Positions 9,119 to 58,879 of a stretch of DNA of 64,000 bases are shown piece by piece. Origin of the DNA: an uncultured Opitutia bacterium (GTDB lineage: Bacteria; Verrucomicrobiota; Verrucomicrobiia; Opitutales; Opitutaceae); the NCBI GenBank assembly GCA_903881475.1, contig CAIRTK010000011.1:1-64000 (forward strand), given 5' to 3'. The notes beneath the pieces were generated by a model. It worked only from the letters and a program-made list of their open reading frames with translations. It searched no databases and was not told the DNA's origin. The translations under genes were made by a program, and so were the position numbers. Within the stretch, counting starts at the first letter, position 1. Each line of letters begins with the position of its first letter.

Positions 9119-9175
9119 GTGGCGCAGGCATCCTGCCTGCATCCGGAGCGAAAGCAGGCAGAATGCCGGCGCTAC
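9119..9175. repeat. GCAGGCATCCTGCCTGC inverted repeat (copy 1)
   Basis: A left arm (9119-9140, GTGGCGCAGGCATCCTGCC...) and right arm (9154-9175, ...ATGCCGGCGCTAC) are inverted copies, each itself containing a smaller palindrome. Related copies are at 28549-28606 and 51323-51344, with a fragment near 53304. It lies between the class II aldolase and the mutarotase-like gene. Confidence 0.75.
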
Positions 9176-28544: not shown

Positions 28545-28548
28545 TTAG

Positions 28549-28606
28549 GTAGCGCAGGCATTCTGCCTGCAGTCGCGTTCGGGTGCAGGCAGGATGCCTG
28601 CGCTAC
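28549..28606. repeat. GTAGCGCAGGCA...TGCCTGCGCTAC inverted repeat (copy 2)
   Basis: Arms at 28549-28570 and 28585-28606, each with an internal palindrome. Same family as 9119-9175 and 51323-51344. Non-coding, just upstream of the glycosyltransferase-like gene. Confidence 0.78.
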
Positions 28607-28613
28607 CCTCTTT

Positions 28614-43232: not shown

Positions 43233-43261
43233 GCCAGTGTCACGTAATACGTGACACTGGC
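43233..43261. repeat. GTCACGTA-A-TACGTGAC palindrome, copy A
   Basis: A perfect 29-bp palindrome with 14-bp arms (GCCAGTGTCACGTA) and a single central A, 25 bp after the mutY stop and 18 bp before the small HTH gene. Copies B, C and D lie at 43668, 50848 and 58851. The left-hand flank (CCCAACCCCAA) is shared with copy B. Confidence 0.9.
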
Positions 43262-43279
43262 AAAAACCCAGAAATCACC

Positions 43280-43681
43280 ATGAACAGCTACATTCATCCC
43301 CGTTTGCGGCCTTTTTTCGAACTCGCCGAGATGCTTGAACAGGCCGCGCGCGCGACGAGCAGGTCATTGCGGCAAAAGCATCATGCGTGGACTCGGCCGC
43401 GCGCCGGCGCCACGCTCCGACCCGGCCCCGGGACGCCTTTGTGGAACGAACTGGCCCGGATCGCCGCCGCGCATACGGTGCGCTATGGGGAGAAGGCCAA
43501 ACTGGGCCGCCATCTCGGCGTGCCGCGCCAGCGGGTGCATGAGTATCTCATCGCCCAAACGGCCTGCCCCGACACGGAGCGGGCGCTCCTCCTGATCACC
43601 TGGCTGCTCACCCGGCATGAGTCCGTCGGCACCGACCAGCCTCGGATCCCCTCGCCGAACCCCAAACCCAGTGTCACGTAA
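43280..43681 (+). CDS. Small helix-turn-helix protein framed by palindromes
   Basis: 133 residues. The middle is Arg/Pro-rich. Residues ~55-112 look like an HTH DNA-binding fold: WNELARIAAAHTVRYGEKAKLGRHLGVPRQRVHEYLIAQTACPDTERALLLITWLL, where KLGRHLGVPRQRVHEYL is the turn. The stop codon TAA is inside palindrome copy B, and copy A lies 18 bp before the ATG, so gene plus palindromes make a compact 462-bp unit. No known family name is claimed. An autoregulator or repeat-binding protein are both possible. Confidence 0.6.
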   Translation: MNSYIHPRLRPFFELAEMLEQAARATSRSLRQKHHAWTRPRAGATLRPGPGTPLWNELARIAAAHTVRYGEKAKLGRHLGVPRQRVHEYLIAQTACPDTERALLLITWLLTRHESVGTDQPRIPSPNPKPSVT

Positions 43682-43694
43682 TACGTGACACTGG
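43668..43694. repeat. GTCACGTA-A-TACGTGAC palindrome, copy B
   Basis: 27-bp perfect palindrome in the same orientation as copy A (it is nearly symmetric). It supplies the TAA stop of the HTH gene. Flanking CCGAACCCCAAA resembles the left flank of copy A. Confidence 0.9.
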
Positions 43695-50315: not shown

Positions 50316-50339
50316 AGAGCACCCCTTCCTGGCCACCTT

Positions 50340-50428
50340 GTCATTCTGAATGAAGTGAAGAATCCAGTTGGATCAGGTCGAAACCCGCAGCGAAGTCCCA
50401 CTGGATACTTCGGTACGCTCAGCATGAC
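50340..50428. repeat. TCATTCTGA hairpin repeat (copy 3, degenerate)
   Basis: GTCATTCTGAATGAAGTGAAGAATCCAGT is matched by an inverted ACTGGATACTTCGGTACGCTCAGCATGAC. The arms have more mismatches than copies 1 and 2, so this copy is older. It lies between two methyltransferase genes. Confidence 0.75.
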
Positions 50429-50526
50429 AAACCTTGGCCTCGCGGTTCCGTGGATATTCCTCGGCCTGCAGCGCACCTGAGCGCCTTCCTTCCCATCCGT
50501 CCTTTGCGCCCTTCGCGATCTCCGCA

Positions 50527-51291
50527 GTGAAAAGAGTATCCGCCAACGTCGTCCGCTCCGACTTCAACGACCTGCTGGCCGTGATGCACTACACCCGCGC
50601 CGCGCATAAGCTCGGCCTCTGGGCCTCGGAGCGAATCCTGATCGAGCGTTTTTTCCCCGACAAAGGCGCGCGTCTCCTCGAGGCCGGCTGCGGCGCCGGC
50701 CGCGTATCGGTCGCCCTCTGGGAGCTGGGCTACCGTCACCTACACGCCTTCGACTTCGCCGAGGAACTCCTCGTCCAGGCCGAGAGCCTCGCCCTGGAGC
50801 GCCAGGCCGGCATCACCCTCTTCCCCGCCGACGCCACCGCCCTGGGCCAGTGTCACGTAATACGTGACACTGTGTTCGACGGCGCGCTCTTCATGTTCAA
50901 CGGGCTGATGCAGATTCCGCTGCGGCGGAACCGGCGGCGGGCGCTGCGTGGGCTGGCCGCGAAGTGCCGGCCGGGTGGCACGCTCCTCTTCACGACCCAC
51001 GACCGCGACAGCTCCCCGGCAGAGCAGGCGATGTGGCGGCTCGAGGCCCTGCGCTGGGCCCGGGGCGCGCAGGACACCCGGCTGCGCGAGTTTGGGGACC
51101 GTTATTTTTCCGAGGAAGGCACCGGCCGGACCTTCATGCACCTACCCGACCGGGAGGAAATCCTCGCCGATCTCGCCGCCACTGGCTGGACCCACACCTA
51201 CGACGCGATGCGCCGGGACATCGCGCAGGAGTCCCGCGCCGTGCGGGAGTTTTCCGACGACTGCCGGTTCTGGGTCGCTCAGCGGGCTTAG
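50527..51291 (+). CDS. Class I SAM-dependent methyltransferase carrying a palindrome in its coding sequence
   Basis: 254 residues from the GTG at 50527. Motif I LLEAGCGAGRVSVALWELG, motif II HAFDFAEELL and the C-terminal lid (RREEILADLAATGW...) are typical. After ADATALG the sequence reads QCHVIRDT, encoded by palindrome copy C, then FDGALFMFNGLMQIPL, which is the usual post-motif IV. Family members normally have about six residues here (e.g. PF-x-x-x-S), so roughly four residues were added in frame in a loop. Substrate unknown. The stretch upstream of 50527 is repeat-derived. Confidence 0.82.
   Translation: MKRVSANVVRSDFNDLLAVMHYTRAAHKLGLWASERILIERFFPDKGARLLEAGCGAGRVSVALWELGYRHLHAFDFAEELLVQAESLALERQAGITLFPADATALGQCHVIRDTVFDGALFMFNGLMQIPLRRNRRRALRGLAAKCRPGGTLLFTTHDRDSSPAEQAMWRLEALRWARGAQDTRLREFGDRYFSEEGTGRTFMHLPDREEILADLAATGWTHTYDAMRRDIAQESRAVREFSDDCRFWVAQRA
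50848..50872. repeat. GTCACGTA-A-TACGTGAC palindrome, copy C, within a gene
   Basis: 25-bp perfect palindrome (arms CAGTGTCACGTA) in frame inside the methyltransferase, read as QCHVIRDT. It is the only copy of the family that lies inside a conserved protein-coding gene in this window. Confidence 0.9.
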
Positions 51292-57651: not shown

Positions 57652-57715
57652 AGGTAGGGACGGACCGCTGGGCCGTCCGGAACGGCTCGGCGGGCCCAGC
57701 GGTCCCGCCCTACCT
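57652..57715. repeat. AGGTAGGGAC 64-bp palindromic element, intergenic copy
   Basis: Perfect terminal inverted repeats AGGTAGGG/CCCTACCT and inner ACCGCTGGG/CCCAGCGGT, 8 bp upstream of the lpxB start. It is the homologue of the copy inside lpxB. The terminal octamer is also that of the BMC-operon repeat at 10851. Confidence 0.85.
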
Positions 57716-58850: not shown

Positions 58851-58879
58851 GTCAATGTCACGTAATACGTGACATTGAC
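58851..58879. repeat. GTCACGTA-A-TACGTGAC palindrome, copy D
   Basis: 29-bp perfect palindrome with arm GTCAATGTCACGTA. Compared with copy A (GCCAGTGTCACGTA) it has two changes in the left arm, each matched by the complementary change in the right arm. It lies in the divergent gap between the Gfo/Idh and PhyH genes. Confidence 0.9.

Follow-up and report, generated by a model that had tools for sequence, protein, structure and literature searches.

Dispersed palindromes and a Cro-like helix-turn-helix gene that they flank: a probable REPIN-like system in Opitutaceae

In genomes of the Opitutaceae, a small gene for a Cro-like helix-turn-helix (HTH) protein is bounded by palindromes, and further copies of the same palindromes are scattered elsewhere in the genome. 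The favoured reading, to which we give a probability of about 0.7, is that these palindromes are a REPIN-like element population, kept by a DNA-binding protein that is dedicated to it, non-catalytic and encoded by a single-copy gene. Comparison of genome sequences shows that palindromes flank the gene, that the half-sites on its two sides match, and that the half-site covaries with the recognition helix. It also shows palindromes dispersed to sites that are empty in other genomes, doublets whose spacer is conserved, and more than one system, orthogonal to each other, within a genome. The HTH protein, presumably as a dimer, would recognise a 17-bp palindrome at its own gene and at 11 further places. 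The palindromes would be copied to new sites, kept in step with the specificity of the protein, and left to decay where the HTH gene is missing; the protein may have a role in their spread or upkeep. If true, this is a REPIN-like system whose partner lacks a transposase, and it raises the question of how short palindromes can multiply and remain matched to a protein.

The locus lies in a stretch of 64,000 nucleotides, called the window here, from genome G000. Palindrome copy A (43233..43261, unstranded; GCCAGTGTCACGTA-A-TACGTGACACTGGC, with 14-bp arms and a 1-nt centre) ends 18 bp upstream of the start codon of the HTH gene, which runs on the plus strand from ATG to TAA (43280..43681) and encodes a Cro/CI-like HTH protein of 133 aa. 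Copy B (43668..43694, unstranded, 13-bp arms) holds the stop codon of the gene, TAA at 43679-43681. Re-inspection of the window confirmed the positions given for this frame in a preliminary description of the DNA, its claim that copy B supplies the stop codon, and the exact cores of two lone copies. Copy C (50848..50872, unstranded, core at 50852) is in frame (CHVIRD) in a methyltransferase-domain gene (50584-51291), and copy D (58851..58879, unstranded, core at 58857) is intergenic. The 17-bp core, GTCACGTA-A-TACGTGAC (17-mer GTCACGTANTACGTGAC), consists of the half-site GTCACG and the centre TAATA. When up to three mismatches are allowed, the 17-mer matches the window four times where 0.05 matches are expected, and none of 100 shuffles reached four. 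Pattern search located the palindrome copies of G000 genome-wide, with the exact core at 13 places, 11 of them outside the two flanks of the gene. The four window copies are predicted to form stable hairpins as ssDNA, with energies of -12 to -15.5 kcal/mol and z about -7 to -8; no match to a known RNA family was found. Self-regulation of the gene through copy A is plausible. The left flanks of copies A and B, said earlier to be similar, are indeed alike at 14 of 17 positions by eye; both, however, consist of low-complexity C/A sequence. The proposal of a mobile module stands in part: the palindromes disperse, but the gene gives no clear sign of moving as a 462-bp cassette. Since the HTH gene has one copy per specificity in the genomes examined and shows no clear jumping, a dedicated gene plus dispersed palindromic elements describes the locus better than a mobile cassette.

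Searches recovered about 90 distinct homologues of the 133-aa protein, almost all of them from Opitutaceae-type genomes. In a genome sample made up mostly of MAGs, homologues occur in 30 of the 95 relatives searched, all 30 belonging to the same family, and in none of 34 genomes of the order's other families; the profile search of genome contigs used a tighter alignment subset, A2. When about 85,000 species genomes were scanned, 75 loci were recovered. By record label nearly all are Opitutaceae, Opitutus or Opitutia, the exceptions being a few labelled just Verrucomicrobia and one Akkermansiaceae. No homologues were found in viral contigs, phages or plasmids. Flanking palindromes were searched up to 270 bp from the gene. 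At a score of at least 10 they are present upstream of 47 of 88 and downstream of 46 of 90 homologues, against 5 of 337 control windows. Lowering the threshold to 8 gives 65 of 88 and 61 of 90, against 16 of 337, so that most homologues are bounded, contrary to the outcome that the preliminary description had named as refuting its proposal. The half-site is common to both flanks in 51 of 55 two-sided loci (shuffled mean 6.1, maximum 15), and it varies by lineage: GTCACG, GTCACC, GTCACT, GTCATC, GTCAAC, GTAACG, GTAACC, TTCACT, TTCATC, GTTCG, TGCCG and others. Many loci that lack a perfect palindrome still have an identical inverted repeat on both sides.

The variation of the half-site follows that of the protein. 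Mutual information was calculated between all protein columns and the half-site bases for 60 representatives under 70% identity. The strongest columns are residues 84, 82, 83, 88, 95, 85, 87 and 72, with the peak at residues 82-88 and mainly in the predicted recognition helix (PRQRVHEYL region, about residues 83-92). Where residue 84 is Gln, Arg83 occurs with G1 in 52 of 52 cases and Pro83 with T1 in 7 of 7; Arg85 pairs with C5 or T5, Gln, Thr or Ala85 mostly with A5, and an acidic residue 88 with C5. Loci that were added later and not used to derive the rule obey it, Arg or Lys83 going with G and Ala83 with T or C. In G011, Pro83 is found with ATAACC flanks. On the best tree, which was built without the helix, residue 83 has three changes, and so has base 1. 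Relatedness may contribute to the covariation, because the tree is poorly resolved and the tree-corrected sign tests, with one supported independent pair each, lacked power. Covariation between helix and half-site is strong, if indirect, evidence that the protein binds the palindrome. Thus the binding proposed in the preliminary description is strongly supported, and physical binding of the palindrome by the HTH protein can be strongly inferred from these sequence comparisons. The about 70 pairs of recognition helix and half-site are also a natural data set for a recognition code between Cro-like proteins and DNA.

Several such systems can be present in one genome. For example, G020 has three HTH genes, with flanks GTCACC, GTCAAC and GTCATC/T; G053 has genes with GTCATC and GTAACG flanks, and G004 has genes with TTCACT and GTAACC flanks. 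G050 also has three HTH genes. Dispersed copies follow the gene of the genome in which they are found. Copies of GTAACCTATTGGGTTAC number 17 in G002, 13 in G004, 17 in G005 and 4 in G011, and none occur in the other eight genus mates; the carriers are exactly the four genus genomes with GTAACC- or ATAACC-flanked HTH genes. Within the genus, cores of TTCACTTA (TTCACTTAATAAGTGAA) are present in 21 copies in G004 and one in G002, and both tests of dispersed copies against own genes were devised after the rule had been noticed. At least seven copies of the GTMACSTA-type core, counted with relatedness uncorrected, occur in 14 family genomes with the gene and in none without it. Gene-less genomes have at most five; 1-5 copies, perhaps remnants, occur in ten genomes in which no gene was detected.

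The palindromes are gained at some sites and lost at others. In the nearest relative, G008 (about 85-90% identical), sites 1, 2, 9, 10 and D are empty, as is the gene locus, and sites 11 and 12 are common to the two genomes. Most sites are absent even from G008, and copy D is missing from the matching spacer in every genus mate compared. Thus the empty sites that the preliminary description had asked about do exist, and dispersal of the palindrome is shown by these genome comparisons. The palindromes resemble MITEs of classical insertion sequences, which are likewise small, non-autonomous-like repeats with inverted ends. Here, in contrast, target-site duplications give no consistent signal: in five of six genomes they do not clearly exceed those in shuffled flanks, and in the window genome direct repeats of 8-10 bp are seen at 2 of the 13 copies. 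Nor was an insertion sequence found that could be the parent.

Two sites are located inside genes. Besides copy C, site S7 (G000 contig 18, 15515-15531) lies in frame in a 3-beta-HSD/epimerase-type gene. In other genus mates, the same codon positions hold palindromes with the genome's own core or decayed ones, and S7 is also found empty. S7 is perfect in G000, G005 and G011 and imperfect in G008, G009 and G003, which have no gene; G001 has an HTH gene, yet its S7 copy has decayed. Even in G050, which belongs to another genus, both genes (C and S7) contain in-frame doublets of the G050 core at the same position. These shared coding sites could be either old sites with the core altered in step or the result of repeated insertion at preferred targets. 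The first option would suit a global regulator or chromosome-organising protein, whose palindromes would be operator-like or structural sites under selection in a co-evolving network. Such a protein would also agree with the tendency of sites to decay in gene-less genomes and with the place of copy A just upstream of the start codon, like an autoregulatory operator. We regard this explanation as rather unlikely, since the sites shared even with a relative as close as G008 are a minority and the copies spread as doublets with a conserved spacer, as described below. The second option can be extended to mobile palindromes that repeatedly insert at preferred targets, with the HTH protein as a limiting repressor or immunity protein. 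Same-site insertions in different lineages fit a target preference, and Cro-like folds are typically repressors. A limiting protein should, however, leave many copies where its gene is missing; the copies are many with the gene and few without it, the opposite of this expectation unless gene loss follows copy loss, which makes such a role quite improbable.

The arms outside the core bear on how the elements are copied. Beyond the fixed core, the arm sequence is peculiar to each copy, yet the two arms of one copy are mutually complementary over several bases (for example, CGTCTTT..AAAGACG, GCGAAAGT..ACTTTCGC and GTCAAT..ATTGAC). At positions 2, 4 and 5 of the arm, counted from the core, pairing is seen in 11, 10 and 10 of 13 copies, where shuffled pairing expects 4.4, 5.8 and 4.5. 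Among the 13 copies the complementarity dies away beyond about six to eight bases; complementary arms extend up to 25 bp. At the gene locus, the arms of G001 differ from those of G000 and are again complementary, and at S7 in G005 the right arm is a mirror of the coding sequence found beside this site in empty genomes. An HTH dimer should need the 17-bp duplex only, so that complementary arms of up to 25 bp also speak against purely operator-like sites. Such arms are expected either from hairpin-templated copying or from selection for the hairpin. We guess that copying would be done by host replication or repair on an extruded or single-stranded hairpin, which could account for arms that are complementary yet locus-specific. 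This leads to a bolder and only tentative proposal, which we hold at well under even odds: a class of elements that spreads and persists via a sequence-specific binding protein alone, in which a non-catalytic HTH protein lets its cognate hairpins be copied by host replication or repair, with a readable and evolvable recognition code and several orthogonal systems per genome. Nothing in the HTH protein points to a catalytic domain, and no partner gene recurs beside it, the commonest neighbour being present at 8 of 91 loci when ORFs of at least 120 codons were considered; a copying mechanism is thus missing, which speaks against the favoured reading.

The favoured reading of a palindrome population with a dedicated binding protein invites comparison with REPINs, which have been described as inverted palindrome pairs with a spacer (PMC3116915). 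In G037, the palindromes are mostly paired about 48 bp apart, usually inverted and with a common spacer (CTCTGAAA..TCC), and the HTH gene has a palindrome pair on either side. Many pairs in G050 are spaced at 54 bp, and those in G017 at about 45-55 bp. The copies of the window genome are solitary, with no doublets. REPIN-RAYT systems (REPtrons) share with the present one dispersed short palindromes, inverted doublets with a spacer, a dedicated single-copy gene between its own palindromes, several independent systems per genome, and co-evolution of protein and palindrome (PMC3116915, PMC8266576). They differ in that the partner here is a Cro-like HTH protein rather than an HUH Y1 transposase, in that the GTAG tag is missing, and in that the palindrome here is long and perfect, has locus-specific arms around a fixed 17-bp core, and is solitary in the window genome. 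The system works like REPIN-RAYT but does not belong to it: the transposase that defines the group was looked for, and the gene between the palindromes is a different one.

Ordinary REPs might nevertheless be moved by a RAYT (Y1 transposase) encoded elsewhere, with the HTH gene as a hitch-hiker caught between two copies. The REP/REPIN-like architecture, the GTAG-type REPs known in Opitutus terrae (PMC3733652), and Y1_Tnp proteins in most family genomes would agree with this. But Y1_Tnp was undetected in five palindrome-bearing genomes, G001 (24 copies), G007, G011, G027 (10 copies) and G033, and flanks inspected by eye have neither a GTAG nor a CGTC tag beside the 13 copies. Moreover, covariation with the recognition helix of the HTH protein would not be expected from hitch-hiking. 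RAYT as the mover is largely refuted by the five Y1-negative genomes, and we consider this explanation most improbable. CGTC-tagged REPs (PMC3733652) are likewise palindromic repeats, some of them intragenic, without a dedicated transposase; unlike them, the repeats here lack the CGTC tag and flank a dedicated protein gene. No earlier description of an HTH-palindrome system was found in the open literature, with subscription journals and preprints outside the scope of the search.

The protein that would serve these palindromes may share its predicted fold with a familiar group of regulators. A structure model from 55 sequences (pLDDT 85.5) has a long N-terminal helix followed by the four helices of a Cro/CI-like domain. 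The nearest solved folds are P22 c2 repressor, YdaS, HigA and HipB, all weak matches with a best E of about 0.4. HTH_3 matches 11 of 55 family members. Against the YdaS toxin family (PF15943), the window protein scores 13 bits, below the Pfam gathering cut-off of 30, and E values of 0.01 or better are reached by 24 of 55 homologues. The HTH protein matched no NCBIfam family, and PADLOC gave two weak matches only, among the homologues. In predicted fold and position of the HTH, as far as these weak matches go, the protein is like Cro/CI (lambda-repressor-like) and YdaS regulators. It differs from them in a conserved Arg-rich linker, a TLRPGxxTPLWN motif and the long N-terminal helix, and in that no prophage or toxin-antitoxin context was found. 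Around the 91 loci, there is no recurrent adjacent toxin gene, as for toxin-antitoxin HTH antitoxins, among ORFs of at least 120 codons. GTAACC/GTCAC-type genes of several lineages (L037, L040-L042, L208, L213, L220 and L248) have the same neighbour, by eye a dihydrouridine-synthase-like ORF, which suggests inheritance in place.

Several other repeats were seen in the course of the analysis. About 70 bp from the palindrome at L011 lies a decaying palindrome with another core, GAGTTTGTCACC-TAAGG-GGTGACAAACTC, present in an altered form in G008 and apparently a relic of an older family. In G001 (C13 and C50; L132-L136), the palindrome is located within an array of tandem repeats, each unit about 200 bp long. 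In the window, a dispersed repeat of about 95 bp (about 50338-50432) has many copies at 81-87% identity in G000 and its genus mates, and a second inverted-repeat family with GCAGGCATTCTGCCTGC-like arms is found at 9122-9172 and 28548-28607, as well as in the left flank of L008. A long imperfect inverted repeat (GGTAGGGACGGACCGCTGGGC...) is present at 57652-57715, and a similar one occurs in the site-1 spacer of G008.
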